Part shown: piece by piece, positions 4,714 through 61,288 of the stretch | Position numbering within the stretch: the first letter of the stretch is position 1 | How the letters are laid out: every line of letters starts with the position of its first letter | Source of the DNA: Jaapia argillacea MUCL 33604 | Taxonomy: Eukaryota; Basidiomycota; Agaricomycetes; Jaapiales; Jaapiaceae | Assembly: GCA_000697665.1 (NCBI GenBank) | Contig: KL197748.1 | Span: 74,088 to 138,087 of the forward strand | Reading direction: 5' to 3' | DNA length: 64,000 nucleotides | Made by a program: the position numbers and the translations under genes | The notes under the pieces: generated by a model | What the model saw: the letters and a program-made list of their open reading frames with translations, nothing else | Told to the model about the DNA's origin: nothing | The model's database searches: none

Positions 4714-7700
4714 TTACCCATCGTACTATACATAACACGACGTCAGCGGAGAGATGAAATGGTGAGGATGAAACAGCCAACCTTAATGTACAAAGTACGA
4801 GGAGTGCGTGTGGTCTTCCCAGACGAATCGGCGGACAGTCGCTGGGTCTGTAGGAGAAAATTTTAATAAATCAGACGGAACGAGCTGATGAGGGCTCACG
4901 CCAAGTGTCGCGCTGCCGACGGGTCTGCGCCCTTCAAGGCGGATGTTTTCCAAGCGGAAAATAGCCTTAAAAACCTAGAAAATGAACGCAGATGTGCAAT
5001 CAGTGTATACCGAGACACAGAAAATACTTACCTGGGGTATGGTCTAATTCAAGTCACAGAGGTGAGGATGAATAGGCAAACGCGCACTATACATGGACTG
5101 GAAACTCACCGCCTCGACGAAGGTGATGGCAGGGCACTTATGGAGCCCCAGGCCTTGAACGGAACCCGTCTTCCTCTCACAATTTACTTCCGCGGGATTT
5201 GGGAAGTTGGAAGCCTGAACAGTAGCTCCAGAGATTGAAACGTTTTCCAGCGAGAAAGGAAAACCCACATTTCTATGGGCCTTGCTGAAGTCTGCGTATA
5301 CAAGATCTCCTTTCTCAACAGCGACGTCCGGGAACCCCTTCCCTTGGCGAACTGTACAGTCCTCCGCGGCGACTCGAAAGAGACCAGGGGGTTGACCCAG
5401 CCCTAGCAAGCAAGTAGCAATCAGAGGTGAAATGAATGGTCCAAATCGATTCAAGGGCTCACTTTGCGCTTCACGGATGTAGCCCATGATCTTGGCGTCC
5501 GCAGCTGGATTATCCTCTTTCGATAGCTTGATTATCTCAGTTTTCTCCACCAGGCGAGCGGGTTCGAGATAGAAATCGACAGCATGGGTACACACTATGA
5601 TTTTGCTTCATCAAGGGCAAGGAATCGGCCGTAAGCGGCCCACGTACCTCGAGCCATGCTGACCGAAGACAAGACACAAAGTCCGAGCACATTGGATGCA
5701 AGTCTGAGGCTCTTGAACTCCTCTTGGGCATCCTTACCTCGCTGATACTTTAGCCACGGATCCTGGGTATCCATCTTCTTGAGGAGTTGTAGCTTTGGCC
5801 CCGAGACATCTTTGAATTCCTCCCGTTGCCTGATGTCATCGAATTCGCCGAGTTCACGCTGGAGACTCCTACTTGCCATGGCGAGCCTTCTGAGGAATTT
5901 GGACGACTTTAGCGGCTTCGTCTCGGATCCTCCATGCAGTAACTCCTCATAAACTCGGCTAAGCAGACCAGGGATTCCCTACAAATTCTTCATATGGAAC
6001 AAAGTTTTAAGGAGGAAAGGAGAAGGTCGCTCACCTCTTCGGAGTGATCCCAAATGTGGTTTACTTTGTGTTCAATTCGTTCCATCAGGGTCTTCGCAGC
6101 TTCCAAGGCCTTCTGCCGGACAAGCCAGCCATCCTCAGATTCGTGCATGTGGAAAAGGAACCTAAGTTTTACAGGATAAGTCTTCGGATCAAGCGGGCGG
6201 TGGGGCTTAACTGACGTGTACAGATCTTCAAGCATCTGGAACACCGCGGCTTCATCTTTCCTCTTCCCACCACGACGGATGCCAAGCTGGGAGACCAGAG
6301 GCGCAGAGACATTGTTATCGTCGGTCAAAATAACCTTTCAGAAGCTTACCATTGTTTCGCAGACCCAGCGGGCACATGTCGGATTGATGACTTCTTTGAT
6401 AACATCAATGGACCTGGTACTCTCACTGACGAGGAAAGAAGTTCAGAGAAGTGATCGTGTCGGAGGCTTGCAAACGTACCGCGACTTGGTCACGGCCTCC
6501 ACGATGAAACCTTCCGCTATTGTGGCAAAGAGTTCCGCGTGGTTCACCAACTCTGTGCGATTAGGTATGAGAGCATGTAGAATCTGCACTTATGGTGGTG
6601 AGTTATATGCTGAAGAACAAAGGAGAGTGTGGTCACCATCAGCTGGTCTACATCATGGCTATGAAACGGCAGATCAGCAGGAATTTAGAGGGGAGGCACT
6701 AAGGCATCCTCACAGTGTCTCATTATCAAACCCTAGGAGGAATCTGTCAAAACATCGTTAGGGCAGATAATGAGCCTTCAAGGTGACACGGTCAACCTAC
6801 CCATAACCGCGAGTCATTTGCTTAAGCTTGGGGCCGTACGTCGTTGGGAACCTTTTCGGGTCGTTGAAGACGTGAGAAATTGCGTCTTTGGTTTCTATGA
6901 CTTTGGTGTTCTGCGGTTTCTCAAAGGTGTACAGTCCAGCGGGATCAACTCCGAGGAGCTTTTTGGCTGACAGAGGCGAACTGAACGGGAGGAGGGTATA
7001 GGTGTTGTCGTACGGATAGTTTCTAGGCAAGTTGAGGCGAAGCACTGGGATATCTATCAGAACACGCCTGGATGAGAACTGAACAAGTCTTGCTTGCCTC
7101 TGGGTAAGACAGATCCAAACGTCCCATCATTGGCGGGTTTGAGCGAACGCTCCTTGTAACCCCAATCGGTCAGGTGGTCGTCTGGAATTTCAACAGAAAA
7201 TTAGTGAAGCAATACCGAAGGCATAATAATCCCAGGTTCCCGATACTAACCTGTGAAGCCAGGATCCCCTTGTTCACTACGGACCAAGGTGACCTTGAAG
7301 TGAAGATCAGTCAATAGAACGATGAAACAAGTCTCGTATTTGCCGACTTACAATATCAACCAAGAGTCCGTAAGTCTTGATATCAAACACTTGTCAGCAT
7401 CGTGAATTGTTAATATGGGTGCATGGTCCCACCATCGTGTATCCAAGACTGAGGCCTGACCCGCCCATGGAATCCTCGGCGTATAGTCCAGGCTGGATGG
7501 GACGAGTGAGTGCTTTCGCATAAATATAGAGTGAGAGGAATATACATAAAGCTCCAGATTTGCGACGTCTTTGTACAAACGCCTTGCTTGGGCGACGATC
7601 TCCGGGGATGAGTTCCATTCCTCAAACTTGGTGAACGCTATGGTAGCTTCTGTTATGAACAGCTTCGAGTCAAGTTGAGAAAGAAGGACGGACGTTTGAG

Positions 7701-9635
7701 ACCTAAGTGCTTCCTGAAGTCATTCAGCGAGCACACATTCCACTGCCTGGCCTGCTTCATGACCATAATTTCCACAACTCGCATGCAGGCAGGTATCCCT
7801 TGAGCCCCAGGTTTCCCAGCTGTCGAGGTCGTCGCTCCCTGGAGAATCATAGCGATATCGTTATCGCTGAAGCTGCCGTCGTCGCCGCGTCGGAGCCTAT
7901 GAGAAGAAAGATATCTCGCGTTGTGCAACTAGATGACATGAATGTGAGATACGTACCCTCCGAAAACACGACGCCTTCGGTCGAGATCGGATTCTAAATG
8001 GTAGTTTTTGACAGCCTCCGTGAACTCAAATGGAGTAATCTGTACATTATTCACCTTCAGGATCAGAAAATACGACAGTGCATGACATGAGGTGGACCCA
8101 CCTCGCCAGGAGACCTGCCGCCAAAAAATGTTTCCATTGTACGCTCTGTCCAATCCGCATCTTCCTGAGATGCTAAAGCGAACCACTAAGAAAAGGAACT
8201 TGAGATTTAGTTACTTCAGACTCAAAAATGTAGACCGCACATGATAGAGAAGAGAAAATTCAACGCTCGACCAATACCGTTGTGTACTCCCGGAACCTGT
8301 TGTAGCACCCTACTTCCCATCGTCAGAAACGATAAGTATGAAACAGATCGAAGAACCCGCCTCGAATATGTCCGCGCTATTGCCCACATTCGCCAGGCCC
8401 GAAAGTCCTTTCAGGAAATCCTCGATAACAGCGTTCCGAAAGATTGCACAGTTGATGATACGAGCTTGTTTGAAGATTTCATCGTCTTGGGAAGCCAAAC
8501 TAGACTCGAGTGAACCGTCGGCGTTGAGGGGCAGCGTGGATGGGTCAATATACGGCGAGTTTGTCTTGGTCAGGAAGAGGCGGCGAGCAATAAACTGGAT
8601 CATGGATAGTCAGGAGGATGATATACCAATGGTAACGAGGAGAAACATACATTATGATTGCGGTTCCAGAGAACAAGTAGGGCTGACACTGCAGGAGGCA
8701 AGAAGAGGGTGCGATCTTCGTAGAAACAGTCCGGCGACAACATGCCACGGCCATCTTTGTTGCGTACGAGGCTTTCTTCGTCGTGGCTTGACCCATACAG
8801 AGGGGAAAGGTCAAAACGAGGAGCGGTCTCGTTGTAATCCGCATCAGAAGGGGAAGTCCGAAAAAGTGTAAGCTGTAGATTAAACCCCCGCCGTTAGGTT
8901 AATAAGAGGATATTGAGGTAATAGGCTGGACTAACTGAGATGATCGTCGCAAATGCAACGGTGAGACCTGAAATTCCATTCGGGTGAACCTCTCTCTATA
9001 ACCACAGAGGTAAGTCTGGGTAATGGTTGAAAGAGACTGATAGTTAAATCAATAGTTACATTCTGGGATCTCAGGAGTGAGTCGAAAACATCCCCCACGT
9101 CAGGTAGGGCCTGGGCTGGGTGAGAAGCGTTCACACTGCGCGCGAAAGGCTGGCGCTGAGAGTGAGGACCCGTAACGTTGCCAAGCAACTGCGGTTGCGC
9201 AGGGTGAGGCTTGTGCACTAAGCAGCATATCGTCAAGCGGTTTGGGAATAACAAAGGACTTTACGTACGAAGTTCAATTGCAATCTTGCTGAACTTCGAT
9301 TTCGACGTGGAGCCACGAGGCAATGTCGACATGTACTTGAATGCTTTGAAAACCTTCAATGTTGGATCAATGGATTAGTTTGGGGGTAAAATTAATGGAA
9401 ATGAGATCGTACAATTCGCTCTCGGTCATCAATTTCCTTGCCATTTCCCAGCTTGGAGAACGGGAACTTCCAACACCAGATCAGATTTTTTCTATTATCA
9501 CCACAGTAAATAGCATACATAAATCCATGCAGGGGGTTCGATTTGAGGAGGGAGCTTGGATACCATGTATCTGGCAAGGGGGTTGGGAATCATTGAAACT
9601 ATACGGGTCGACAGAGAAGGAGATTCGGAAGTCAT
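4714..9635 (-). CDS. Psi-factor-producing oxygenase (Ppo)-like fatty acid dioxygenase/P450 with altered heme-ligand residues
   Basis: A many-exon gene matches the Ppo/linoleate diol synthase family: an N-terminal heme peroxidase (dioxygenase) domain that makes a fatty acid hydroperoxide and a C-terminal P450-like domain that rearranges it to an oxylipin. Landmarks from the N-terminus are MTSESPSLSTRIVSMIPNP (ATG at 9635), GKEIDDRER, FARSVNASH, DLSPLYG near 8795, CFYEDR, WNRNHN, DDEIFKQARIINC near 8480, the proximal site near 8240, a GLFRVAAEDCTVRQGKGFPD block and GLGLHKCPAI with the P450 cysteine at about 5135. A spliced last exon gives TLYIKYDG and a TAA at 4714-4716. At the distal histidine site the spliced reading is TIISLTLFRTS, and at the proximal YRWH site it is LLYHWFALAS. 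The tyrosine is kept but both histidines are missing. The dioxygenase half may therefore be inactive or altered, while the P450 half looks intact. Family membership is secure; individual exon ends are not all certain. Confidence 0.85.
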
Positions 9636-10595: not shown

Positions 10596-12748
10596 ATGAT
10601 CTCTCCAAACAGCCTTACCCCTCCAATGAGTCCTACCCCTATAATGAACTTTCCGCCTCTCAACTTGAACGGGCTCGTCGTCAATGGAAGATCTTCTGTT
10701 CTGGCATCGAATGGCACTGGCCCGACTGCTAGCCACACACACATTGCGAACGGAAATCATTCCATAGATCCCGTTCCTCCGTCTCGCAAGCCACGCACTT
10801 TGTGCTTGTGTGAGTCCCTCGAGTTCTCTGAATCGATGTCGGCTTTGCCTTACTCTCTCCCCAGGCTTCGATGGGACCGGAAATAAGTTCGGATTGGTAC
10901 ATTCCTCGCCTTCATCTTTTTTTTGCATCTGCCTAACGTCGCGGCCGTTTTGATCTGCGTAGCATGTGAGCAGTCCTGTACCGACTCATCAAAAGCCTGA
11001 CCTAACTGGTTTAATCCAGAACTCCAACGTAGTGCGACTCTTCCGTGCCCTCAAGAAGGACAACGATGAAGAGCAGCTTGCTTATTACCAGGTCAGACCG
11101 CCTGGGCTCTTGTTCTTTGATCCTAACCTTATCTCTGATGTAGGCTGGAATCGGTACTTACAATAAGCGTCAATTCCGTACCTACACGTTATCATATATT
11201 GCTTCTGCCCTTGACCAGGCCATCGCCCGGCAGCTCCCTGACCACGTCAAGGATGGGTGAGAAAACTTACTTCCTGACGCCCATGCGCTAACTGCGAGTG
11301 CAGATACAAGTTTCTCATGCAGAATTATCAGTGAGTACATGCCAGTCTCGATGATGTTCCTAGTGAAATTCATCTACACCCACAGCCATGGTGATAGAAT
11401 CTGTCTTTTCGGATTTTCTCGTGGGGCGTACACAGCCCGTGCGCTCGCTGGAATGCTGTACAAGGTGCAACTATATTCTGCTGGCTTCCTCGTTTGGCTT
11501 ATTGTCGGTGCAGGTTGGACTTTTGCCCGCACACAATGACCAGCAGCTGGACTTTGCGTTCTCGATGTACTCGTCTACTGATTTGGGATCGGCTGTGACC
11601 AGCCGCGAGTTCAAGGAAACGTTCTCGTAAGCGTCTTCCCAGACGTAACTCACTCTCTTCGACTGATTCTTCACCCTCACGCTCAGCATCGACGTCGAGG
11701 TTGAATTTCTCGGAGTTTGGTATGAAAGCTTTCATCGGAGGCCACTATAGTATGTCTAATCCCAAACGATAGGGACACAGTCTCCTCCGTCGGGGTTATT
11801 CCTCGAGTCCTCCCGTATTCATCAAGTTGCTACGGGGTGAAAGTCTTCCGACATGCCTTAGCCCTCGACGAACGCCGAGCACGATTCCGTCCTAGTATTT
11901 GGGGCGAACCACGTGCAAATGAGGAAATGCTTGATCGTCCGATACCTGACACATTGAGACCTGCTAACGTTTCACGCGACGAATGGGTGTACGATCCACC
12001 TGTGGATCATTTGGATATCAAGGAAGTTTGGTTTTCAGGTCAGTCGTCCGAAACCGTACCATAATCATATTTCACCTCCCAGCTCTTGACAGGCTGTCAT
12101 GCCGACATTGGCGGTGGCTCGCACGTAAAGGACGAAAACGAGAGTTTGTCCAATATCGCCTTGCGATGGATGATCTCCGAATGCAAAGACGCCAATGTCG
12201 GAATCCAATTTGACGACCGAGTTCTCAAAGAGTTTGGCGTTGAGTCCCACACCGCTCACGAAGCCAACGCTACCCTCCTCGCGTCCGACCAACCATCTGC
12301 TCTCACCCGACTTGGCGAAAAGGTCCTTCGACGATTTGCAAAGGATGACACTGACGCCGTGGCCCGGATTTACGACCAACTCTCGACAGTTCGGTGGTGG
12401 TGGCCCTTGGAGGTGATCCCAACATTGGTCACTTGGCAGAATGTGACCGGGGGGTGGATGCGAGCCAGAATGTGAGCGACGTGTATCTCATTCGTCGTTG
12501 GAGCCTCTGAGCTGACGAATCTCTCGATGTTCGCAGTCCCAACTTTGGGGAGGGTAGAATTATACCTCACAGGTTCGTTGTTCTAAGGACCTTCATTGAT
12601 ACAGTTTTGCTCAGGCACATATAGGGATCATAAAGTCTCTGTCCACGCTTCAGTTCGAAAACGGATCGAAACTGAGCCAAGCTATAAACCCATGGCGCTG
12701 AACTGGGATCTCATTAATGACCTTCGTGTCGTCGAATGGGTTTCCTGA
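10596..12748 (+). CDS. DUF2235-family alpha/beta hydrolase (Tle1-like phospholipase fold)
   Basis: About ten exons, roughly 500 residues in total. Exon 1 starts at ATG 10596 with a Pro/Asn-rich tail and ends at TLCLC. The next exons give FDGTGNKFG, NSNVVRLFRALKKD, AGIGTYNKRQFRTY, the nucleophile elbow ICLFGFSRGAYTARAL (G-x-S-x-G), VEFLGVWDTV with the likely acid, FRHALALDERR, and VWFSGCHADIGGG with the likely catalytic histidine. The C-terminus reads HKVSVHASVRKRIE..YKPMALNW and stops at TGA 12748. This motif order is that of DUF2235, a hydrolase family that includes bacterial type VI phospholipase effectors and is common in fungi. The fungal substrate is not known. The final acceptor is ATAG just before GGATCAT, because an earlier CAG would run into a stop. 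It is divergent from the oxygenase gene, and a shared lipid role is only an inference. Confidence 0.85.
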
Positions 12749-13907: not shown

Positions 13908-16607
13908 TCAATCGCAGAGGTCCCGCCTCCACATGAATCGACGAACGCTATCCTTATTCCAGACATGTTGGACTCTGCCTTTGGCCGTTCCTGCAAGGAT
14001 GGTAATCAGCCTCACGTACACGAACGGCAAGACGAGATGGAACTTACGTATACCTAACCAAGCGATCCTGATATTATGTGTACCAGAGGGTATGAGAAAG
14101 GCTCCATGACTAAAGCCGTTCCGCAAGCATTCATTGGGATCATCACCGCAAAATGCACCGCTGGGCAAGAATGCCGACGTTGACCCCATAGAAACCCCAT
14201 CGACGTACACCTCTAACTGCATGTCGGCGTAGTCGACGTCCATCAACGAAAGCTTGTGAACGCTGGGGTAATTCGAGTCATATTCAACGTCTCGAGGACT
14301 ATTGGTTGAATCTCGTGAGATGATCTGGACTTCCCAGGGCGTGAGTAAGGTCTTGCATGAGGATGCAGACGATGGGACATGTGGGGAGGAGGGTGGAATG
14401 GGCGAGGGCGAAGGGGTTTCTGTTTCACAAGGTCCACAGACAGAAATAGTGCTCGTGATCGGCGGGGCGTGCACAGTTGTCGTAAGACGAACAGTTGTTG
14501 GGAGTGTGACTGGTGGGAGTGTGATGGTCGATGTCAATGTTCGGGTAGCGACTGCCTGCGTAACAGTTACAGTTGCTGGTTCTGAACAAGCTTCGGTGAC
14601 TGTAACTGGGACACAGGCTTGGGGAGGAGGATCTGAGAAGGACGGTGGGTTCAGGGTAGGTGGGGGAGGGGTCCCGAAGAAGGCAGGGGGTGTGAGAATG
14701 GGAGGAGGGAAGTGGGGAGGTGAAAGTGTGTGAGGAGTGTCGGTAGCTGGTGTTGTTTGGTTTTCGGGAGGTGATGAAAACGAAGGAGGTGTGAGGATGG
14801 AAGTAGAAAATGACGGAGGACTGAGCACGGTAGAAACTCCTGGAGTTGAGGTTGATTGGTTTTCGCGTATATCGAAAGAAGGAGGGGTCAGGATAGACTG
14901 AGTGAAAGATGGAGGTGTGAGAGTGGGAGGAACCTCCGGAGTCGAAGTTCGGTTTTCGATTGTTGTAAACGAAGGAGGAGTGAGGATGGATGTGGAAAAC
15001 GAGGGGGGTGTAAGTGTTGGAGGCACTTCCGGCGTTGGTTGATTTTCCGAAGGACTTGGAAAGGATGGTGGTGTGAGGATAGACGTAGGAAAAGAGGGAG
15101 GGACCTCCGGAGTTAATGGGGTAGCGGGAGGTGCTTCGAAGAAAGGTGGAGTAAGGATGGACGTAGGGAAAGCGGGAGGTGTGAGAGTCAGAGGGACCTC
15201 CGGGGTTGGAGGAGTTCGATTTTCGGAAGTTGAAAACGAAGGGGGCGTGAGGATGGATGTGGAAAATGAGGGTGGTGTAAGGGTTGGAGGCACTTCCGGC
15301 GTTGATTGATTTTCCGAAGGACTTGGAAAGGATGGTGGAGTGAGAATAGACGTAGGAAAAGAGGGAGGGACATCCGGAGTTAATGGGGTAGCGGGAGGGG
15401 CTTCGAAGAAAGGTGGAGTAAGGATGGACGGAGGGAAAGCAGGAGGTGTGAGAGTCGGAGGGACCTCCGGGGTCGAAGGAGTTCGATTTTCGGGAGTTGA
15501 AAATGAAGGGGGCGTGAGCATGGATGTGGAGAACGAGGGTGGTGTAAGGGTTGGAGGCACTTCCGGCGTTGATTGATTTTCCGAAGTTGGAAAGGATGGT
15601 GGAGTGAGGATAGACGTAGGGAAAGAGGGAGGAGTGAGAGTGGGAGGGACCTCCGGAGTTGAATGAGTGGATGGAGTACCGGGAGGTGCTTCGAAGAAGG
15701 GTGGGGTAAGGATGGATGTAGGAGGTGTGAGACTCGGAGGGACCCCCGGAGTCGAAGGAGTTCGATTTTCGGGAGGTGAAAACGAAGGGGGCGTGAGGAT
15801 GGATGTAGGAAACGAGGGGGGCGTAAGTGTTGGAGGCACTCCTGGCGTTGATTGATTTTCCGGAGGAGTTGGAAAGGATGGTGGAGTGAGGATAGACGTA
15901 GGAAAAGAGGGAGGGATGAGAGTAGGAGGGACCTCCGGAGTTGAAGGAGTGGATGGGGTACCGGGAGGTACTTCGAAGAAAGGTGGGGTAAGGATGGATG
16001 TAGTGAAAGCGGGAGGTGTGAGAGTCGGAGGGACGCCTGAAGTTGAATTCGGCGTCGAGGAAGGGGGTACAAAGGAGGGCGGAGTAAGGATAGACTGGGA
16101 GAACCAGGGAGGTGTGAGTGAGGGAGGGACCTCTGGCGTCGAAGACACCGACTCATTCGTCGTCGTCGGTGTTTCGAAGGATGGTGGGGTGAGGATAGGG
16201 AGAGAGAAAGAGGGAGGTGTAAGGGTAGGAGTTGCAGTCGTGTAAACGCAAGTCGGACGAGGTGTCATCGACTCGCCTGGTCGTATCGAGGTGAGTAGTG
16301 GTTCCACGCGAGTTTGTGTCTCGTTACAGTCCCCGGCGATGACCGTCATCGTTTCGCGAACGACAGTCCAATCAGTCCCACAGGGTGCGTAGAGCGGAGT
16401 CGGATTGAAAACAGTCATGGAGATGGGCCGGCCATCTGTGGCAAGCCGCGTCATGGTAGTGGTACCATTGGACGTGAAGCCTTGGATACAATCGGTGATT
16501 GTCTGCGCGACGATCACTATCGGTAGATACGCATAGAAGAGAATAAGGAACAACATCGCAATAGATGATTGGCCCATTGCAGGTGGTGTGGTTGACGCCT
16601 TGTTCAA
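13908..16607 (-). CDS. Large secreted proline-rich repeat protein with a C-terminal cysteine-containing domain
   Basis: The frame spans 899 codons including an in-frame 57-bp intron at 13991-14047 (GTAAGT..TGCAG), giving about 880 residues. An N-terminal signal sequence (AMLFLILFYAYLPIVIVAQ) precedes about 100 residues with Cys and N-glycosylation sites (NGTTT, NETQ). Residues of about 130 to 640 are imperfect tandem repeats built on LTPPSFPTSILTPPSF and STPEVPPT. Next comes a Thr/Ser-rich mucin-like stretch (TVTVTQAVATRTLTSTITL). The last 150 residues are a domain with DVDYADMQLEVYVDG, FCGDDPNECL, GFSHGAF, IRIAWLG and RRFMWRRDLCD, paralogous to the protein at 3882-4559. The composition suggests a cell-wall or secreted structural protein carrying a folded C-terminal module. 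No enzymatic motif is seen. The repeats make copy-number differences between strains likely. Confidence 0.75.
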   Translation of the reverse strand: MNKASTTPPAMGQSSIAMLFLILFYAYLPIVIVAQTITDCIQGFTSNGTTTMTRLATDGRPISMTVFNPTPLYAPCGTDWTVVRETMTVIAGDCNETQTRVEPLLTSIRPGESMTPRPTCVYTTATPTLTPPSFSLPILTPPSFETPTTTNESVSSTPEVPPSLTPPWFSQSILTPPSFVPPSSTPNSTSGVPPTLTPPAFTTSILTPPFFEVPPGTPSTPSTPEVPPTLIPPSFPTSILTPPSFPTPPENQSTPGVPPTLTPPSFPTSILTPPSFSPPENRTPSTPGVPPSLTPPTSILTPPFFEAPPGTPSTHSTPEVPPTLTPPSFPTSILTPPSFPTSENQSTPEVPPTLTPPSFSTSMLTPPSFSTPENRTPSTPEVPPTLTPPAFPPSILTPPFFEAPPATPLTPDVPPSFPTSILTPPSFPSPSENQSTPEVPPTLTPPSFSTSILTPPSFSTSENRTPPTPEVPLTLTPPAFPTSILTPPFFEAPPATPLTPEVPPSFPTSILTPPSFPSPSENQPTPEVPPTLTPPSFSTSILTPPSFTTIENRTSTPEVPPTLTPPSFTQSILTPPSFDIRENQSTSTPGVSTVLSPPSFSTSILTPPSFSSPPENQTTPATDTPHTLSPPHFPPPILTPPAFFGTPPPPTLNPPSFSDPPPQACVPVTVTEACSEPATVTVTQAVATRTLTSTITLPPVTLPTTVRLTTTVHAPPITSTISVCGPCETETPSPSPIPPSSPHVPSSASSCKTLLTPWEVQIISRDSTNSPRDVEYDSNYPSVHKLSLMDVDYADMQLEVYVDGVSMGSTSAFLPSGAFCGDDPNECLRNGFSHGAFLIPSGTHNIRIAWLGIRKFHLVLPFVYVRLITILAGTAKGRVQHVWNKDSVRRFMWRRDLCD
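14640..16200 (-). repeat. In-frame imperfect tandem repeats coding for Pro-rich units
   Basis: Repeats of roughly 100-130 bp encode alternating LTPPSF and EVPPTLTPP blocks with ENQSTP or ENRTPSTP spacers. Around fifteen LTPPSF-type pairs can be counted. Unit boundaries are variable, so both unequal exchange and point change have acted. Confidence 0.7.
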
Positions 16608-17917
16608 TCGCTTGAGTTATAAGGCCTCACTTCGAGAGAGAAGAACCAATGAGAGATCAATGTGTCTGGGATGCGAAATACCGGCCTGGTACCCGCCCCA
16701 GCGTCGGACGAGATACCCTGAGGCATACCATACACAAGCTGAAATCGCCAGAGATCAACGAGGATAATCGCATGAAACCTGAAACTGAAGATCAGAGGAC
16801 AAATCGGCCCATCCATGGTGTGTCGTCCAACCCGAAGCGTGGGATGACCGTGGACTTGGGGGTGAGATCCACTGGGAGGATGCAGGACGGACTCCATGTT
16901 GATGACACGATACCAAGGAACAGCTGAGGAATACCGAAAAAAAAGTGACCTTGTGGTGATACCAGCGAATTCGAAGATAGGAGATGCGGGAAGACACGCA
17001 ATATTGCGACAACTGCGGACTGAGGGGTGATAGGGGTCCCGATTAATCACCTCGACATGACTGCCACCTACTGTACTATTGTCTAAGTAACTCCCTCTCG
17101 TAAATCACGCCTTGAGGCCTCGAGGGCCTGTCAATCACTCGTTCCGTGTAACGAGAACCCCGCGCAATCGTTCGTAGGTCGGCGCTTCCCCAAGTCGCTG
17201 TCGTTTCTGGCATCTATATCGGCTCATTGAGGTGCACGGCTGCCGGCTCAATGATTATCGTTCGTCTACGGCGTTTTCTTCGACTGTAGCGTGTGGGACG
17301 CTTCCCTAACATCCAATCCTTAATTCTGGAATGCTGTGTTCTCGCGAGGCAGACAATCGGATGCTGCGTGCTTTCTACACTGTCACTCCAAGGACTGGGA
17401 TAGGGTTTCCTTCATTCTGTGCTCACGGGTTCTCACCGTTACACAGAATGGCGAATTTATCACAATGCATTCGAGCACACTGGTTTGAGGTAATCGACAC
17501 TGTCATCTTGTCTCCGCCTTGCCTGCATCTTTTCCGAGTCCTCGAGGTTCGAGGATACATGCCTCCAAAGCCTATGTGATGGATCCGGCGTCTATATTTT
17601 GGCACACTGGTTTGTGTTTCAGTAAATGTGGTCCGTTTGCTATGCTCGATGAGGTCGGAAACTGCACTCACTCCGTTTCTCAGACCCGCAAATGCGTTTT
17701 CTCATGAGGTTAGTTTTTGATGCTGCCGGTTTCTTGAAAATTTAACTCAGCTTGGCTTTCATGCCTTACCCTCGTGTTTGCGCCATGGCATTATGGCAAA
17801 GTCATTGCACAGCCGTCGATGCGAGCCATAAGCTACAACATCTCGGTAAGCAGATTAACCCGTCATCTCGTAGCCTCTCGGTCTCAAACCTCCACCTCTC
17901 CCCAGCCTCCAACGCTC
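16608..17917. other. Divergent intergenic region
   Basis: This holds the presumed promoters of the secreted repeat protein (minus) and the membrane protein (plus). A minus-strand frame at 16604-17050 is open for 148 codons but has no family features and is not accepted as a gene. Confidence 0.4.
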
Positions 17918-19610: not shown

Positions 19611-22600
19611 TCACATCGAATTAAGGAGACCACGGATATTCGGATGGAGAGCGCCCAGGAGAATTCGCTCCAGTCGCTCTGGCGTAAGAGCCTCGTCATA
19701 GGGGACGGTATCAACCATATTCTACATCTGGATCAGCCATCGGTAGGCAAGATGACTTAAATCTACTCACGTTGTTATCACAAAGCATTAGGTCCCTCAA
19801 AGCTACGCCAGCCTCTTGGTCATCACCAATTTGGACGAATTGAACCCCAATGCAATTAGGGTGGTGCTTCGATGCTCTCAAACGCGAGGCGGCATCGATG
19901 AGAACGTCCTTTGGCTGGTCAGCTGGAATGGCGTTAGATGTAGCGGAACATATTTTCACTTGACTGACTCGGAGCGCCGTCGGTGATGACTATAATGTCC
20001 AAGGGCTCGATATCCCGATACTCCTCTGTACTGATGGCAGCATCCAACCTGGCAATCTGTGTATTTAGTATGTTTCCGAGGACCCTGCCGGTGGGTGTTG
20101 AACCTTCAGGTACTATCAGTCAAAGTCCAGAAGCAGCAAGTGATGACCGTACCTCGAGGGCTAACTTGTTTAAAGGCCTTCTCAATCGTCGATGCGTTCT
20201 ATTCAAGGAAAGGAATGGTGAGTTTGAATAATGCCATACGGGAGGAGAAACGAACCGTCACGTCCTCACAGACGACGGTTGAGTTGAGGAAACGAATTTC
20301 AACCGTCTTCGTTCCTGTCTTCACAGCATGCCCAGCGATGCCAGAGAGTGCTCTTGAGGTTTCTCGCCACTTTTCTCCTAACATCTATCAACGCCCCGTT
20401 AGTGAATTCCAGGGAAATAGGAAGAGAACCAACCGATCTAGAATCGTCAATCACGAAGACGACACGATAGGTACTGACGTAAAGAGATTAGCAAAAAGGA
20501 CTTTGAGAATTATGAGAATGGTACCTTAGATAATCTTGCATTGTCTGCGGACGTTTCTTGTCAAGCTGAGGATTGTAACCTATGTTCGTGTCCGGGGGAG
20601 GTGGTGGGGGTTCCATTGTCCGAGCGGCTGCGATGTCTGATGGTGCCTTGACTGCCGGACGTGGCTCTGATGTCCGAGTGGGTTCGGGTGTCAAGAGCTC
20701 TACTTGGGAAGGCGGTGAGGGAGGCTGCGGTGTCCCATCTCGCTCGATGGGCGGTGGCTGGACATCTGCAGGATGAGCAGGAGCAGCAAGAGGTGGTGGT
20801 GGCGGTGGTGGTGTTGGCTGACGGGGAGGTGGTGTTGGTTGACGGGGAGGTGGTGTTGGCTGACGGGGAGGTGGCGTTGGCTGACGGGGAGGTGGAGTTG
20901 GCTGACGGGGAGGTGGCGTTGGTTCTCGAGGAGGTGGCGTTGGTTCTCGGGGAGGTGGGGTTAGTACTCGGGGAGGTGGTGTTGGTACTCGGGGAGCTGG
21001 GGTTGGTACTCGGGGAGGCGGTGTTGGTACTCGGGGAGCTGGGGTTGGTACTCGGGGAGGCGGGGTTGGTACTCGGGGAGGCGGGGTTGGTACTCGGGGA
21101 GGCGGGGTTGGTACTCGAGGAGGTGGGGTTAATACTCGGGGAGGCGGGGTTGGTACTCGAGGGGGTGGGGTTAATACTCGGGGAGGTGGTATTGGTACAC
21201 GGGGTGGAGGTGGTAGTGGTGTAGGTATAGGCTGACGCGGGGTAGGATTTACCGGCCTTTTCGCCAGCTTACGGACCGGGAACTCTCTGTTAAGGTCTAC
21301 AAGCTTCGTTGCAACATTGCGGATATTTTCCTTCTGTTTTGGAGAAGCAAGCCAGTCCCTGATGGTTTGTTCAACGAGTTCAAAGTGGAATATATCGGCG
21401 ATTTCCATGGTGGGTAGAGCTGAGGAAGGGTTGAAACGATAATAACGGCTGTAGAAACAAATAAGCTGAAGCCGAGTATTTCTCTCACAAAGGAAGGAGC
21501 TCTCACGTATTTAAAATCCTAGAAGAAACATCGAGGTGAACAAGTTCCGAGTCCACAGCGCCGGATACAAGGTTTTTCACAACCGTCATCGCGCGCCTGC
21601 GAGATATCTCTCGCTCCGCGATTTCGCTCGGAACCTTCTCAAGAATATCGTCGACAAAGGGTTTGAGGTAAGCCTCTGTAGCGAACCACGCCTGCGTGGG
21701 CTTCGGAGGAGGATACAACTCCGAAAATCCAGTTCCCAAACTGACCACGACACCTATATCCTTCAAAGGCCAAAGTTTCTGAGCCTCTCTACAAGCCAAA
21801 CGAGTTGGATTGGTAAACCCGCACAACCCAGCATCTTGAAAACTAAATTCGACGTCGTCTTTTCGGATCTTGAACCGGGGAAGATAAATTGGGTTTGCTA
21901 ATGTCGTACGCGCCGCTTCTCGAACCGACCATTCGTGACCGGGTGGTGAGGATTGGGTACTATGCGGAGGAGGAGGGTAAGAGCGGACATGGTAAACCAT
22001 ATTATCGTAATGTGGTGTGTCTGCTCCGACTGTAACGAATGTCTAAGGGTCAAAAGTAACTCAGAACCCATCCAACGTCAGGAAGAGACTGAAAGAACCT
22101 TTGTACCCCCGTGAGAAACGTGACTGGTTCCACTCTCAACACCCATCATCACAAGATCGGGATCTCCACCATACGTGAGAATGAGCCCGCGAAGGGCATC
22201 TTCATAGGCTTGTATTTCGAAATCCACCCCAGATAAGAGCCGAAGCCAGAATTCGGATTCAGTGGTGCCTAGTAGACTCTGCATAGTGGTCTTATACACC
22301 TCTATGGCGGTACGGCAATCAAGACCGAATCTTCCGAGAAGCAGGGCCAGGAAACCGCCGGTGGATGTCCCACAAATGAGATCGAAAACTTGAGCTGGGA
22401 CGAAGGGTCTTTGAGATATCTGTTCGACGTTTTGCATTATGCTCTCCATGATTAGAAGCGATTTGAGTCCTTGAAAACCTCCGCCGTCGATGGAGAGTAC
22501 GCGTTCGTGGTGATCTGGGTGGAGACAACGTCATCATCGACTGATAGAGGGAAGAATGAAGTAGTAGAAACTTACGAGGAATGGAAGCCATGGTTCGACA

Positions 22601-31773: not shown

Positions 31774-34435
31774 TCATTTATTCAATGCGAGCAGTTGAAG
31801 GGGGGAAGTGGAGGTCATGGACGGAGAGGGTGGAGGTGGAGACAAAGAGCGTGGATTGGGAATAACACGGAACTCTTTAATCTCCGTCTCTGCATCTGGC
31901 ACAGGTTGATCTGTGGATGATTGCGTGGGCAATGCGAATGCGAGTCTGGTGAAATGAGGATCCACACGCATTTGAGAGTCTTCGGAAAGCCTCTCGATGA
32001 TCTTCTCAATGAGTTGTGCATTTGTTTGGCCTGTTGTATTGATGGGAATCGATAATGGAGTCCTGATATCTTGCAGTTCTTCCTTCTTCTTCCTCTTGAG
32101 GGAGCCAGCGAATCTAACCAAGGTGTCAGTGATAAGCCACGCACGACGTTCAGCTGCACCTCTTTCAGCATCTTCCTTTGCCTGCTGCTTAGCCTGCTCT
32201 GCAGCTTCCTTCTCCTCTCTCTCAGCCTTCTGTTGCCGCCAGCACTCAAGAGCTTTGCTACTCATCAAAAACTCGGCCGCTGACTGCAACTGCTTCCCTT
32301 TCCAACCCTCTGCCTTGTCCTTCTTTGAATGCAGCTGGTGCTTCAAGGCCCCAATCTCGTGTCGCGTGAGATCACAATGGACTTCAAGTGCTTGCCAACA
32401 CCGGAATTCAGTCAAATACAAGGCTTGTGTGCGGTCAAGGTCCCTGTTTAGAATCTCGATTTGCTGACGAAGGGTTAATCGCAAGTGAATGACAGTGCAC
32501 TTGAATTCCGGGAGCTTCGGTCCCCACTGATTCAATACTGCTGTTGTTTGTGATGAGCCTGGTGACTTGGGTGAAGCTGATTGTGGTGCTGAGGTAGATG
32601 TGGTGAACAGCGCGACGTCGTGGGTGATTGTCGAAGATTGGGAAGGCGCTGTGTTACTTGATGTGGATGCGCTTGGATCCCAAGTTGATTTGCTGGAGAG
32701 TTGGGGTATGGGTTTGTTGTCGTTGGGGTCATTATACCAGGTTATCTTGGAGGCATCAAGGAGCTCGCCATTGGGCCCCACTGTGCAGTTATCATTGGGT
32801 GTCGTAGTAGGAGTGGAATTATCAATGCGGATTGGGGAAGCTTCGAATGGGTCGGAGGACGTCGTGGCTGAAGGTGTCGCTGCGTTTTTGTCAGGAGAAT
32901 TGATGATAGACGATGTAAACTCAGGGAATGAACTGGGAAGGGAAGCCTTGATGGAGGTTACACGGCTGGGAGCAAAGTCCTCGTTGGTGAAGATGTTGGG
33001 GTTGAACAGCGCAATCCCGGTCTTCCGAAAAGCTGCCTTGATGGTGACTTCTTTGATCGCCACTGCCCAGACTGCCATGTATTCATTCACAAACTCGTGT
33101 TTTGGCATACTTTCGTGCGTCTCTTCAACAATCTCCTCCATTTGCTCTATCCATGCCCGTTGTAAAGGACCAAAGCATCCTGTGTCACATGGCTGACTTT
33201 TATGAGTGGTGTGGGAAGGGAGCTGGTGAAGGTGAATGTTGTGGTTCAATGCTGCCTCTCACATTGCATCAGTGAGGTGGGATCCATGTCCATCAAAAAT
33301 GAGCAGGATCGGATCTTCCTCGTTTCCAGCTTTCGCACAAGCCTTGGGGATGAAGACGTTTGTAAACCACTTCTCACATTGAAAATTGTCTGTCCATCCA
33401 TTCTCCGTTAACCCAACACTATTAACTTGTCAGCATATTCTAGAAGCACAAATCACAGGTCAGGACCACATACAAAATATCAGGATGATCAAGGAACCAA
33501 TCCATGTCAAAAGTCTTCCCTCCTTGGAAGATGAATCCCAGGTCCAACTTTGTGCCGTCCGCACAAACACACTCAACCATGGTCACCAGCTCTAGGTACG
33601 CGCTCCATTTCTTATACTTGGCACGACTCCTGCGACTTATAAAGTACTTCTTCCCAGTCGACCTCCTTCCCCCTCCAATCTGCATCCCAGTCTCGTCAAA
33701 GTTATAGATATTCCTGAGTTTGTATTTGTGTTCTTTGATCGCATCACCAAGCTTCTTGAAGTGGTCGCTCATCGTTGCAGGATTGAATGCCTGGGCTTGT
33801 TTCAGGTCAAGTCCCGAGGTCCCGCAGAACTTTAACTCGTCCTTGTGACAAGCATAGAAAGCCTTCACCCATTCCAAGGAAGGTTTGCGACTGGTGAGCT
33901 TCTCGACCTTGACCCTGACTCTTTCCTTCCCCCACGGTCTTCCCTCTTCGGCTTGATAACACATCCACTCCAGAAGCACATCCTCCTGAGGAGCTGTCAG
34001 GATTTTCTGTTTATTGTGAGCTTCTCAGGGTGATTTGTGCTCTCCACAGAAGCGGTGCTGTAAGGTGTGGTAAGAAACCTTGAATTTCTCAGCAGCAGCA
34101 GCGATGTTTTGGGTTTCCAGAGGCTTGGAATTGAGGAAAGCAACAGCATCAGCAAGGTGAGATTTGTCCTCCTGACTCTGTTCAAGCTCAAAGAGTTGGG
34201 AGGAATTTTTTGAGGACATCCAGCGAGACGCGAGCCTTCTGAGCACCTCAGGACACTGAAAATTCACCCAAGTCTGACAATCACAACAGTTGGAGCGGAG
34301 CTCAAACGGCATCACGCCTGATGGTGGCTGCTTTGCAACACCCTCTCTGCACTGTCTCCTATGCAAGAACTGTAGCAGATACGACCTATTGGTATGGCAG
34401 GGAGGTCTGCTTGTGGTTCTAGTTGATATATCCAA
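31774..34435 (-). pseudogene. pogo-like DDE transposase with two in-frame stops
   Basis: Domains in order: a psq-type helix-turn-helix (ETQNIAAAAEKFKVSYHTLQ near 34080), a CENP-B/Tc5-type binding half (EDVLLEWMCYQAEEGRPW near 33960), and a DDE_1 catalytic core. First Asp is in NIYNFDETGMQIGG near 33700, second in ILLIFDGHGSHLTDAM near 33290, third in SQPCDTGCFGPLQRAW near 33180. All three catalytic Asp are present. A short intron (GTATGT..AATAG, about 33412-33467) lies between HPDI and VGLTENGWTDNF. A long Ser/Thr/Pro- and Lys-rich tail with a coiled-coil-like stretch (REEKEAAEQAKQQAKEDAER) follows to 31774. Two in-frame TGA codons, after HKSP (about 34033) and after HLTDAM (about 33257), sit where CGA (Arg) would fit the surrounding frame. 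The copy therefore looks inactive by C-to-T change at CpG sites. The N-terminal Met is not certain. Confidence 0.75.
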
Positions 34436-42017: not shown

Positions 42018-43445
42018 GTGCCTGGCGGTATTGGTGGAGGTGGATCCAGTCCCCCTGGGGGAGGCAGAGGGCCTCTTGACAGAGGAGGCAGCCCTCCTGA
42101 CAGAGGAGGTGGCCCTCCTGGAGGGGATAGGCCTCCTTCCCATGATCAGGGCGATGACTCGTCTGATGACAATAATCATACTCGTGATGAGTTGTCATAC
42201 GGCCCCTCTAATGTTAGGTTTGATCTTGGAGCCGACCCCTTGAGCTCAGCGTCCTGTCGTCTGAGGCCCGAGAGAATGAGCCACACATACTCAGGTTCAC
42301 CTCGAGCCTACCTTAACCCTACTGCTATCGTCAACCATCCTGACAAATATGAAGAGGAGTCGCTGACTCGGATTAGGGTTTTGATACAAGAGTGTCTTAA
42401 CCATGGCCAGTCTAGCCAGCCCTTGCCAAAAGGTGTTAAGACCCCTACCCCTTATCATTGGGAAGGGGAAGACGACATTGAGAAATTCGAGAACTGGTTC
42501 CAGTTCCTATTACGATGGATGTCAATGCAAGGATTGACCGGTGTCAAGTATGACCGCACCAGGGTGGATTTCCTGGGGCAGTTTCTTCGTAAACAGGCCC
42601 TCTCTTGGTTTAACCACAAGATTGACACATCCCGTTATTATGAACGAGGTTTGAACTTCGAGAAAGTGGTCTGTGCCTTACACACCTGGTTCCTGCATAA
42701 GGCTACAGCCCAGGAAGCAGTTCACAAGTTCCTTAATTGCAAGTTCAGCTCAGAGACGGGTGTGGCTGCGTTCTATAACGCTCTTCATCACAACGCAGCA
42801 CGTATGGTGGTCGCCCCTGACGACTATACGTTCAGGAGGGAATTCTTGGCTGGAATCCCTGAGGAAATCAGGGGTTTGTTGATGAAGAATTGGGGAGTTA
42901 ACGCCGAATTCACGCCCTCTGAAGTGATGTATCGTGAGGCTATTGAGATGGAGACCTCCCTCAGGTTCATAGCCAGGCAGCGACAGCTTAGTGGTGCCAG
43001 ACTGAGCAAGGGCAAGTCGTTGTCCAGTAGACGTACCAAAGGTCGCAATGCCTGTAGTCCTCATAGGAACGACCATCGAGATCGGTCCCCTGATAATCGC
43101 AGGAACAAATGGGATCGTTCGTCATGAAGGAAACGCGTTGCTCGTGAGTCGAGGGGTCAAGATGATAGGCCCTCCTCTTACTACGAGTCCAAAGGGTACC
43201 GTTCACCTTGACAGGATGACCACTGACAAGGCAGAGTCGATCACTGCCATGATGATAGACCCTCCAGGTATAATCGGCTTAATGAAGGGAGGAGGCCAGC
43301 CAGGCCTCCCCCAGCCAATGATAGTCGCCCTTACCAAACCACTGGATCCGCAGATGTTACTTGCCATAACTGCAGGAAGAAGGGTCATATGCAGAGGCAG
43401 TGCCCCTCCCCCCAGCGAGATGCACAGTTACAAGCTGCCCACATA
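42018..43445 (+). mobile_element. gag region of the chromovirus
   Basis: A Gly/Pro/Asp-rich start is followed by a capsid-like helical domain (FENWFQFLLRWMSMQGLTGV, AVHKFLNCKFSSETG, RREFLAGIPEEIRGLLM). A CCHC zinc knuckle (CHNCRKKGHMQRQC) lies near 43370. Confidence 0.75.
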
Positions 43446-43928
43446 GAGGAACTGTCAACGGAGCCTACTACTACTGGAGAGTCAGGGTTGTCGATGGAAC
43501 AGTCATCACCAATTGATACCAGACCTACTCGACGGAGTGAGCATCGCGGTGATCACTTGGATTCCGGCCAGTCACGATCTAGTCAACGAGGCCATGGGCG
43601 ATCCTCATCTTGCCAAGACTACTTAAACACCTCTTACGATTCATCAAGTCCATCCAACTATTATAATCGTTATGGGTCTGATTACTCCAGATCAGCTTGG
43701 TCGGTTAGGCTTAGTGCCATGAGAACTGTGGACTCAGATACCAATAGCATGAATAGCCTTGAGGGGCTACCCAATCTACAAGAGGTATTCGACTCGTCTG
43801 ACGACGATACGGTGCCTAGGTTCGGATTGGTCAAACCTGCTTTATTCACTATGAAGCCAGTTCCCAGGCAGGAAACAGTGACCCGAGCTCACATGTGTAA
43901 GATGGACGGGAAGATTACCTGACCCAAC

Positions 43929-44465
43929 GTGAGTTGCCCAGCGAAGGAGGTGATGTGTTGCTATGTGAACATTGGAGGAACATCAGCGTTTGCGCTATTG
44001 GATTCGGGAAGCACGATGGATTCCCTTAGCCCTAGTTTTGTTACGCTGGCGGGTATTCCGGTGTCGGAATTGGAAACCCCAATTCCACTGCAGTTGGGAT
44101 GTGTTGGGAGTCGATCCACCATTCAATTCGGCACTACTACGGACATTACCTTCGGTCATAACACAATAAAACACTACTTCAACATTGTGAATATTGACCG
44201 GTACGACGCTGTGCTCAGTACAGCGTTCATGTGCAGAATGGGAGTATTGTTGGACTTCAAACATGGTGTATTAAAATTGGGATCCACTCCTGTATCCCTA
44301 TTTAAAGGGGGAGAGGGTCCACAGAGCAATTGTCATGGTCGGCAATTCGATACCAGTGTCACTTTTCAGTCTACCAGAGAGCTATCCCCTGAACCCAAGT
44401 TGGGTTCAGGCAAACAAGTCAGCCAGACGGACTCGTCGTCACGTCTGGTGATTAATCCTAGGTGA
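43929..44465 (+). mobile_element. Retropepsin region of the chromovirus
   Basis: The aspartic protease motif ALLDSGSTMDSLS and the strand YDAVLSTAFMCRMGVLLDF are present, as in Ty3/gypsy proteases. Confidence 0.7.
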
Positions 44466-44705
44466 AGCGAGGCCGTGGGCAATGAACCACCACCCACAAA
44501 AACTTGCAAAGCCATGGTGGAAGAAATCACGGACGAATACTTCTTGCAACGACAAGCTGGTCAGAGTGAGCCTTTTTCTGGGAGCTTCTTCTTTGAAGAA
44601 TCCACGAAAGTTCACCCTTCGTCATCCACGACGAATAATTATTCTGAGGACACCTGTAATGCTTGTCATAATCCTACGTGATCTGACGAACCTACTCCTA
44701 TACCC

Positions 44706-46073
44706 CCTGAGCCAGATGATCTCAAGATCGATCTGGACCTCAGGCAGAAGCTACGTGACAAATGGATGGCTCAATGTACAGACCTGTTGGGTACCATACC
44801 CCTCGAGTTACCCCTGCTTAGAGAGATCAACCATAAGATTCCCTTAGTGGATGAGAACAAACGCTACTCGTACCATTTGCCCTGGTGCGCGGAAGCCTTG
44901 AAGCCTCAGCTGAGAGCAAAGATCAATAGATACCTCCAGGTGGGATGGTGGGAGGAAGCCACTGTCCCCCAGGCAGCTCCCATGCTCACGTTGCTAAAGC
45001 CCAAATCGACTGATATTCGTACTGTTGTTGACTGTTGGAAATGAAACAATAACACCATCAAGGATGTTACCCCGTTTCCTGATCAAGATGAAATCCATCA
45101 TGATGTTGCTCGCGCTAAGGTTAGGTCAAAAATCGACATGTCTGACTCTTACAAGCAAATGCAGGTGGACCCTGATGATGTTTGGAAGACGGCGTTTGCT
45201 ACGGTATACGCTACCTACGTTAGCCATGTTATGCAACAGGGTGACACGAACGCCCCAGCTACTTTTCAATGATTCATGACCCACCTATTCCAAGAATTCA
45301 TTGGCATCTTCATACACGTCTACCTCGATGACATTTTCGTGTTCTCCAACTCACTAGCTGAACACGAAGAGCGCCTGCGTTTGGTGTTCACCAAACTCCG
45401 TGAAGCTAAGCTATATCTCAGCAAAAAGAAGTGTAGTCTGTTCGCAGAGCGCATTGACTGCCTAGGGCATATAATCGATGACAAGGGCATTCATGCCGAT
45501 GCTGATAAAATGGCCAAGGTTCGTGAATGGCGAACCCCTCAAACTTATCATGACGTTCAGCATTTTTTGGGGCTGGTCCAATACCTAGCTCCGTTCATGC
45601 CTGATGTGACCACATTTACCAGCCCTCTATCCAGTATGATCTGCAATGGTCAGGTGTTTGCGTGGAGACCTATCCACGACAAATGCTTTGAAAGTATCAA
45701 GACGTTAGCCTGTCGTACTCCGATCCTTAAACCCATTGATCCCAGCACTGGTGAACCCATATGGGTAATTTGCGATGCCTCCCTGACTGGCATTGGGGCA
45801 CTCTATGGCCAAGGACAGGATTGGCCAATGTGCCAGCCCGCAGGCTTCATGTCCAAAAAGTTCACGAATGCACAACAATCTTATTGCACTTACGAACACG
45901 AGACGATCGCTATCCTTGAGGCTTTGATGAAGTGGGAGGACACGCTTCTGAACAGGAAGATCATCATAATCACAGACCATAAGGCATTGGAATATATGGG
46001 CACCCAGAAGAACTTATCGTACCGACAGGTGCGATGGAATGAGTATCTCAGCCGGTTTGACTACACTATCTGA
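44706..46073 (+). mobile_element. Reverse transcriptase/RNase H region of the chromovirus
   Basis: The catalytic YLDDIFVFS box near 45330, the FLGLVQYLAPFMPD connection and the RNase H words ICDASLTGIGALYGQ and IIITDHKALEYM identify the domain. Confidence 0.8.
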
Positions 46074-46166
46074 TATGTCAAAGGCAAACTCAACAAGGTC
46101 ACCAACTGCTTCTCACGATATTACGAGTCTGACAATTTTGATGAATGGCAGCCTGAGAACGACTAT

Positions 46167-47918
46167 GTGAACGCTGACGTACGACTGGACCTGGATGGGG
46201 ATGCTCTCCCCGTAGCTCAGATCAAAGAGTTTCGAGCCGCTCAAGTGATGACCCCCCGGTCTAAGCTTAAGAAGGTTCCCATTGGCCCTGTAAGACGATC
46301 TGATCGTCTTCAGGACGTCACTGTGACTGAAGAACGACACACAGTGTCTCAGACTATGGCGGAGGCTATGCCCAACGAACCGGAGCCCGTCCCTGCCACA
46401 CGGATTGCTCCTTCTATGGATGACAACCCCACTTTGGCAGAAGCCATGAAGTCCCAACCTTCACTCATGAATCATGTGGAACAGGATACCGATTTCATGA
46501 CCACTGTTAGAAACAGATATTTGGAAGACGGGTTCTTCTCGAAGATCCTCGCCGACGTTAAGGGGTTCTCCCTGTTTTCCGTTAAAGACGGGTTAATCAT
46601 GACCAAAAATCATCAGGGGATGGAAGTGGTGTGTATTCCTTGGGTTATGGTTGGTAAACGATCCCTGCCGGAAATCGCGATCGAACACAGTCATTCAATT
46701 CTCGGACATCTGGGATCATTCAAGACGTCTGAATATGTTCGTCGATGGTACTGGTGGCCCAAGTTGGCTACTATAATCGAGAAATATTGTGATACGTGCA
46801 ATGTATGTGCTACTACCAAGGCTACGGGTCAGAAGCTGATGGGGAAACTCCATTCCCTCCCCATTCCTACCCGACCGTGGGGATCAATAGGGATGGATTT
46901 CGTTGGCCCTTTCCAGCCTTCTGGGGGATTTGATTACTTATGGGTCATCATATGTCGCTTAACCGCTATGGTTCACCTTGTCCCTGTGTTGACTACCGTT
47001 ACCACCTCTGAGCTAGCTTGGATATACCTCGATTGGTATGTCAGACATCATGGTATACCTGACTCTATTGTCTCCAACCGCGATAGCAAGTTCACCTCTC
47101 GCTTCTGGAGGGAGTTGCATCAGTTATTAGGAACAAAACAGTTGATGTCCACGGCGTTCCACCCTCAGACCGATGGGTCTTCGAAACAGGCTATCCACAC
47201 TACCAACCAGGTTATGCAATCACTAGTTCAACCCAATCAGATGGACTGGATCGAGAAGGTACCGCTTATCGAATTTGCCATGAACTCCAGCATCAGTCAG
47301 ACTACTGGGTTCGCTCTGTTCAAGCTGGCGGGACCTATGCCGTCCATGATCCGTCAGCTTAACCTGGTGCCTGCTATTCCTGGAGTAAAGGATTTCGCTC
47401 TCAAGGCTCTAGAGAACTTAGCCAAGGCTCACGACGCTATACTCAAGAGTCAGGTTAATCAGGCATTTCACGCTAATAAGAGACGTCGACCTGACGATCT
47501 GTTCCTGGAAGGGGACCTAGCATTCCTGTACAAGATTCTCATGGCAAACCCCAGTGAATCCACCTATACACTGGAGTTGCCTGAGGCCCTTAAGTCTCGT
47601 CGGATTCACCCGACATTCCATGTTAGCAGGCTGCGAAGGCATGAGAATAACGACGAAGTCATGTTTCCCCATTGTGAGACCAAGGTATTCTATGACGTCG
47701 GAAACGATGATGACACTCAATGGATGGTCGAGGAAATCACGGGCCACCGATGGATGAGGAATAAGTTACAGCTACTGGTGCGATGGACCTACGGCGACGA
47801 AACATGGGAGCTGTTAGCTAACTGCGACGAGCTACAAGCCCTGGATGACTATCTAACACTATGTGGAGTAGCCTCAGCGTCGGCGTTACCCAAAAAGGTA
47901 GTTGCCTTAACGGGCTAG
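46167..47918 (+). mobile_element. Integrase and chromodomain-like end of the chromovirus
   Basis: An H2C2 zinc-binding half (HSHSILGHLGSF..CDTCNVC) is followed by the core (GMDFVGPFQPSGGFDYLWVI, STAFHPQTDGSSKQ), the HPTFHVSRLRRH module and a C-terminal chromodomain-like stretch (LLVRWTYGDETWELLANCDE). This places the element in the chromovirus clade. Confidence 0.8.
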
Positions 47919-53418: not shown

Positions 53419-54374
53419 CCAGAATAAATGGTTAAAAATCAGAATAAAATCAGAATATAATCTAGTGAGCATTGGTCAGTGCTGGACAACAATTTGGGGC
53501 TGTTTGGCAGGTCACATGACTGCCTAAATAGGGAAATTGATCAATATGGCCCAAAAAAATGTGGGGAAAATCTGGAAAAATCAGAATAAATTATACTAGG
53601 GATAGGGTAGGGGTTAGGGGCACTTTGGTACTGTTTGACAGGTCACATGACCTGCCTAAAATGGTACATCAGTCAATTCAGCTGGGGAAATGCCAGAAAA
53701 TCAGGAAAAATCAGAATAAAATGCTGCTCATCTGGAGAGATACCCTGACTATGTGTGAATGATGACATAATATCCTAATTTGGTGATGTTTCTTATATGT
53801 ACCTAATAAAATCAGGAAAAATCAGGGAAAATCATAGAAATATATTCACATTGCTATGGTGTCATGTGACTGATATGCTATGCCTAAAAAGGAAATTTTC
53901 ACAACTAATAGAAAATCAGTTGAAAGCATAATAGGCAGTAGGTACTTTATGGAATATTACCAAATTTGGAAATTTTAACATTGTGGTCTCAATAGGTAGC
54001 CTGAATCTAGGGCTACCCAGATCTATCACTGTATCACTTGTAGCATTGTTTATTATGCTGCTATGGGGTAAACAAAGTTGAAAAGTGTTGTATTTAAAAT
54101 TTGTTTTGCATTTTGCCAGAGGTACAGTGGCTGGAATCAGGTAAGGATGCCCATTCTGAGGTCTCCTAGGTGGGATCTATAATCCTAGATACTTACATCA
54201 ACATTCCCACAATATTATTTTTCCACTGAAAATATTTTCGAAAGGTGGAAATCAGTCATTTGGGAGATAGTTTGATGTGCCAGTGATATTGAGTCCTCAG
54301 AAGTGGGGACTACAATCCTAGATACTCACATTGTCCATTTTGGCACCTTCACTTTTACTGAAAATGAACAGTTG
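53419..54374 (+). repeat. Left arm of a 2.86-kb palindrome
   Basis: The 956 bases beginning CCAGAATAAATGG are the near-exact reverse complement of 55323-56278, also 956 bases. It contains many short AAAATCAGGAAAAATCAG words. No coding frame is supported. Confidence 0.9.
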
Positions 54375-55171: not shown

Positions 55172-55322
55172 CCAACCTCAGATGTAAAAATGGGTGAAAA
55201 CCAAATCTTACAGTCATCTCAAACCAATTATCTCAGGTCATAGACCAATATGAGAGACCTCCGGAATGAATGTCTTACCACCCTCCTTTCACCAAGCACC
55301 TGGCAAATCTAAAATTGGTGGT

Positions 55323-61060: not shown

Positions 61061-61288
61061 GTCCATGGACAAGAAAAAGGAACCCACACAGAAAACAACT
61101 GATTCTATGTAACCAATATAGGAAAAGAAAACGTCATCCTCAGAAGTGATTGGTTACTGGAGCACAACCCTGAAATAGATTGGCAAACCTACACAATTAA
61201 CCTCAGCCAATGCCCTGACACATGCCAGGTCCCAGAAGGACCTGTCGTCGCACGAACCAAACCAGTCCTGAAGGTTCAAAACTGTGAA

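Follow-up and report, generated by a model that had tools for sequence, protein, structure and literature searches.

A Ppo-type gene of the basidiomycete Jaapia argillacea MUCL 33604 encodes a predicted fusion of a dioxygenase (DOX) and a P450-like domain in which the heme site of the DOX half has been lost and the heme-ligand cysteine of the P450-like half has been kept. This loss, previously proposed in an initial annotation of the sequence, is confirmed by alignment and hand-checked splicing and reaches further than was stated there: as the proximal His, the distal His, the central Tyr and the ADGSNN segment are all gone, canonical heme dioxygenase activity of the protein is very unlikely. 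The best reading, to which we give about an even chance, is that the heme-less DOX domain acts as a scaffold for a P450 that works on hydroperoxides made by sister enzymes.

Gene model and genomic setting

The window, a stretch of 64,000 nucleotides (C40:74088-138087, from a genome of 43.7 Mb in 95 contigs), carries the gene on its minus strand, with the same start (ATG, 9635) and stop (4714) as in the initial annotation, whose description of the gene as Ppo-like is upheld by an N-terminal domain of the animal-heme-peroxidase type (PF03098, 64.5 bits, cut-off 25). The model (Table 1) was built using a purpose-written intron-aware protein-to-DNA aligner with a profile made from two paralogues on contigs C4 and C29; the aligner spanned 9149-4939, after which the gene ends were added and badly aligned stretches were replaced by eye. 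No stop interrupts the 1089-aa frame. The 29 introns are 41-69 nt long and all GT-AG, which is not independent evidence, because the aligner and the choice by hand admitted GT-AG only. NCBIfam, searched with the window protein and the C4 paralogue, returned no family for either.

The alignment contained no frameshift at penalties of -22 and -40 and scored 710.9. Lowering the penalty to -12 made a single-frameshift path (at 6437) the preferred one, 714.0 vs 710.9; this path bypasses short exons that were later placed by eye. The donors of two introns are weak: GTTCTT in 8356-8297 and GTTCTG in 7063-7023, which is only 41 nt long. Thirteen residues are missing near the former relative to the paralogues, and this stretch stays uncertain because of the weak donor and the many alternative in-frame introns. 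A frameshift before YHWF, where the frame changes near 8260-8340, was considered and rejected, as intron 8356-8297 keeps the frame. Assembly error was also set aside: two separate missense sites together with in-frame deletions would be unlike sequencing indels.

Table 1. Features of the Ppo-type gene, in window positions.
Feature	Position	Strand	Basis or remark
Ppo-type gene (DOX + P450-like fusion)	4714..9635	-	30 exons, 1089 aa; paralogue alignment, hand splicing, PF03098
Exon LHKPHPAQPQLLGNVTGPHSQRQPFARSV.. without the conserved ADGSNN segment	9060..9217	-	Alignment, site table
Intron by the distal site, GTTAGT..CTACAG, 63 nt	8873..8935	-	
Leu159 (CTT) at the distal heme His position	8870..8872	-	Aligned with C4 H180, C29 H211; codon checked
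Phe292 (TTC) at the central Tyr position = COX Tyr348	8415..8417	-	Alignments; codon checked
Ambiguous intron directly upstream of SVEFSLLYH	8297..8356	-	18 in-frame single introns, all types
Tyr329 (TAT), catalytic Tyr retained = COX Tyr385	8244..8246	-	Alignments; codon checked
Intron splitting YH/WF, GTGCGG..TCTTAG, 55 nt	8186..8240	-	Sole frame-keeping single intron found there
Phe332 (TTC) at the proximal heme His position	8180..8182	-	C4 H361, C29 H386, COX-2; codon checked
ExxR motif, EAQR, split by intron 5462-5403	5401..5472	-	Alignment, codons
GxHxC motif, GLHKC (His1025, Cys1027)	5134..5148	-	Site table, codons

Upstream of the gene and on the opposite strand, an exon-sized frame (12065-12472 +) matches a Tle1-like phospholipase-type hydrolase (PF09994, 31.3 bits, cut-off 27). 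The frame at 22081-22530 - resembles a patatin-like phospholipase at 25.2 bits, under the PF01734 cut-off of 27.7. An open frame of 902 aa at 13911-16616 -, for which Pfam gave no match at E<=0.01, sits where GC skew is strong (0.505 at 14001-16000). The window also holds a DDE_1 transposase-like frame (31777-33258 -, PF03184, 32.3 bits) and two retroelement stretches, 43227-47915 + and 61103-63895 +, with RT/RNase H and integrase-type domains and, in the first, a zinc knuckle. The low GC of 54001-56000 (0.226) is largely due to a run of N at 54375-55171. PF20152, a family typical of Agaricomycetes, gave eight matches here, seven of them above the cut-off, whereas 14 control genomes gave no match; this makes a mushroom-forming basidiomycete the probable host.

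Residues lost and kept in the two halves

Both splice joins on which the loss was originally proposed stand, with codons checked: intron 8935-8873 joins TCA to CTT and gives FATIIS/LTLFRTS, where C4 has FAALVIHTVFRTS and C29 has FADLIIHSIFNTN, and intron 8240-8186 joins TATCAT to TGGTTC and gives SVEFSLLYH/WFALAS, so that SVEFSLLYHWF faces SVEFNCLYRWH and SLEFNLLYRWH in the paralogues. Alignment to these two sequences likewise bears out the absence of both heme His (Leu159, Phe332) and the persistence of the catalytic Tyr. Other splicing, which might have brought a His back, did not do so when we enumerated single introns of 30-139 nt with GT-AG, GC-AG or AT-AC ends that leave the two flanks in one stop-free frame. 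At the distal site such introns number 11, and not one puts a His three positions ahead of FRT; at the proximal site a single option exists, and it reads YHWF.

The loss extends past the His pair: ADGSNN falls within a 13-residue deletion, and the Tyr that Phe292 replaces is reported to be conserved among COX and the DOXs (PMC13049297). A phmmer comparison of the window domain with COX-2 (6ofy_A) reached E 8.5e-15 over the whole sequence; the stretch that sets ‘lyhwf’ over ‘lyhwh’ and ‘edf’ over ‘edy’ contributes only 7.4 bits. His330 of YHWF stands where YRWH has Arg and where COX reads YHWH. Also retained are Arg212, assigned by us to the COX Val291 position, the NRNHN motif and the fold elements DLSPLYG and SLNDFRKxLGLK.

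In the P450-like half, the cysteine is kept in GLHKC, as the initial annotation held, and the ExxR motif is kept besides; both signature features of a heme-thiolate P450 are therefore present and this half may bind heme, with only G, H and C retained from FxxGxHxCxG. Neither the window protein nor C4 matched PF00067 at E<=10, in a search where HMMER filters discard most matches above about E 0.1, and C29 scored 17.2 bits, under the cut-off of 22.8. Against PDB, the window half alone found three matches, none of them a P450, whereas the three-sequence P450 profile found weak P450 matches, the best at E 0.0051 via the ExxR region, among 10 matches that include non-P450 chains. This half aligns with those of the paralogues at 24.7% (C4) and 27.0% (C29) identity only, carries 19 window-specific indels in our alignment and stops 13 columns short of the paralogue models, which themselves end at a likely donor, CAG/GTGTGT. 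The suggestion of a P450-only enzyme is plausible from its motifs and is put no higher, because of the indels and the missing PF00067 and PDB P450 matches. It is probably not a diol synthase, since the I-helix motif NxxQ, characteristic of linoleate diol synthases (PMC8097960), is absent throughout the P450 part of the model.

Paralogues, divergence and competing explanations

A search with PF03098 and the window DOX part found at least two other Ppo genes in the genome, on C29 at about 415.4-419.8 kb (L018) and on C4 at about 301.9-306.4 kb (L019); two is a lower bound, because the search scores best candidates only. Distal His, proximal His, central Tyr and catalytic Tyr are retained in both, GxHxC is found in neither and ExxR is common to all three genes. 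By eye, the sequence near the lost GxHxC reads GLEDY in C29 and GDGCARF in C4. As judged from these sequences, the window gene and both paralogues found are mirror images in what they have lost, the DOX site in one and the P450 GxHxC in the others, and this pair of mirror-image paralogues is the strongest argument for a division of labour. Pattern matches to the three-sequence DOX alignment numbered 100 in viral_contigs and 134 in genome_contigs, none of them confirmed as a relative, and no orthologue emerged.

If the heme-less domain is indeed a scaffold, it would no longer bind heme canonically but would still be translated and retained, folded, in support of the C-terminal P450-like domain; the latter, with its ExxR and HxC thiolate site, would process fatty-acid hydroperoxides released by the DOX-only paralogues. 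The window protein itself would have no dioxygenase activity, and the ancestral bifunctional enzyme would thereby be split between genes. The sequence evidence bearing on this is the set of residues lost from the DOX half alongside the catalytic Tyr, ExxR and GLHKC that remain, the open frame and the opposite losses in both paralogues found; the lack of PF00067 and PDB P450 matches for the window half, the reduced FxxGxHxCxG signature, the 19 P450 indels and the shorter C-terminal end point against it. The DOX domain of CcDOX1 is reported to show no activity when expressed alone (PMC9579011), from which it follows that an inactive partner can be structurally required. Every LDS, as well as examples of 9-AOS and 8-AOS, is reported to carry HxC (PMC13049297). 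A fuller version, in which two ancestral reactions have been divided among proteins that all retain one dead half, such that the two paralogues make fatty-acid hydroperoxides and the third, heme-less-DOX protein processes them, possibly as a hydroperoxide-cleaving P450 of the sort that mushroom alcohol (1-octen-3-ol) formation still lacks, strikes us as improbable.

Divergence is uneven between the halves. Over the DOX part, identity is 42.9% between window and C4 (475 positions), 41.0% between window and C29 and 54.9% between C4 and C29; over the P450 part, C4 and C29 share 29.5%. With gap columns left out (window/C4/C29: DOX 23/1/2, P450 10/5/3), lineage-specific substitutions number 102 in the window gene, 38 in C4 and 48 in C29 for the DOX part, and 69, 60 and 52 for the P450 part, a contrast with a Fisher odds ratio of 1.93 (p 0.0024) that, coming from three sequences, is weak. 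It fits opposite relaxation of the halves; relaxation of the paralogues’ P450 halves alone would give the same, and an outgroup position of the window gene may by itself raise its substitution counts. Lineage-specific indels (DOX + P450) are 11 + 19 in the window gene, 1 + 5 in C4 and 3 + 3 in C29. Third-position GC is 0.556 in the window DOX part and 0.578 in its P450 part, against 0.433 in its introns and 0.592 in each paralogue.

These figures bear on whether the gene is simply decaying, as the initial annotation also suggested, both halves having escaped selection and the frame being open only as a relic of a function lately lost; we think this unlikely, though well short of negligible. 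The high indel counts in both halves speak for decay, as do window-specific DOX changes that are less conservative (mean BLOSUM -0.19, vs +0.61 in C4 and +0.27 in C29; rank test p 0.012) and shifted toward the neutral one-step value of -0.70, the two weak donors, the frameshift favoured at a penalty of -12, a PF03098 score below those of the paralogues (64.5 vs 114.3 and 102.1 bits) and retroelement domains elsewhere in the window. Set against this are a frame that runs through 30 exons without a stop, the absence of any forced frameshift (the -12 path skips exons that were placed by hand later), the 43% of DOX positions shared with C4 and coding-like third-position GC. An open frame alone is compatible with decay, and an open DOX frame shows no DOX function, because translation of the downstream P450 needs it.

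The protein might instead be a regulatory pseudoenzyme, one that takes up fatty acid or forms hetero-oligomers with the active paralogues and controls them. The retained DOX fold elements speak for this reading, as do reports that PpoA and PpoC are tetramers (cited in PMC9579011), but it leaves the retained HxC of the other half unexplained, and we regard it as rather doubtful. Much less probable still is a DOX domain that continues to bind heme through His330 or another residue with altered chemistry: His330 precedes the lost proximal His by two residues, and Tyr329 and Arg212 are kept, but COX carries the same-position His beside its real proximal ligand, and the distal His, central Tyr and ADGSNN have been lost too.

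Significance and relation to known fusions

PpoA retains its DOX His. Aspergillus PpoA and the linoleate diol synthases share the domain order of the window protein, and in them a His precedes the P450 Cys by two residues (PMC9579011); LDS carry NxxQ (PMC8097960), which the window gene lacks. Loss of the P450 half is a published fate of such fusions. The window gene shows the reverse, a DOX half that has lost its heme site beside a P450 half that keeps its Cys; no report of this state turned up in a limited literature search that took in PMC5919972 and PMC4633277. An active protein would be a P450 that relies on hydroperoxides supplied by others, and it would offer a candidate class for the hydroperoxide lyase step, which has been called uncharacterised (PMC9579011, PMC11719350). 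The lyase link is weakened by Coprinopsis cinerea, which makes 1-octen-3-ol: one account gives two genes there, both without the Cys (PMC9579011), and another gives three genes of this kind, all DOX-(CYP) (PMC9410191). In Agaricus, a CYP61-like P450 has been held responsible for the lyase step (PMC9410191), which also counts against the link.

The closest parallels include other fusions with one disabled half. CcDOX1 and CcDOX2 of C. cinerea are likewise DOX-P450 fusions of a basidiomycete that keep a half devoid of its heme ligand, but with the roles exchanged: their P450 Cys is gone and their DOX is active, the reverse of the window gene (PMC9579011); C4 and C29 are in the state published for these two proteins, of subclades a and b (PMC9579011). 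Aspergillus PpoC, a 10-dioxygenase, also has one inactive half, but it is the P450-like one (PMC9579011). Rhizoctonia solani KEP52552 has the motif YHWH, with His at the Arg position of YRWH as in the window protein, but the motif as printed retains the last His (PMC8097960). In basidiomycete subclade IVc the P450 heme signature is apparently complete (PMC9579011), whereas the window protein keeps only G, H and C; the P450 Cys is kept in both, and the two perhaps belong to the same group.
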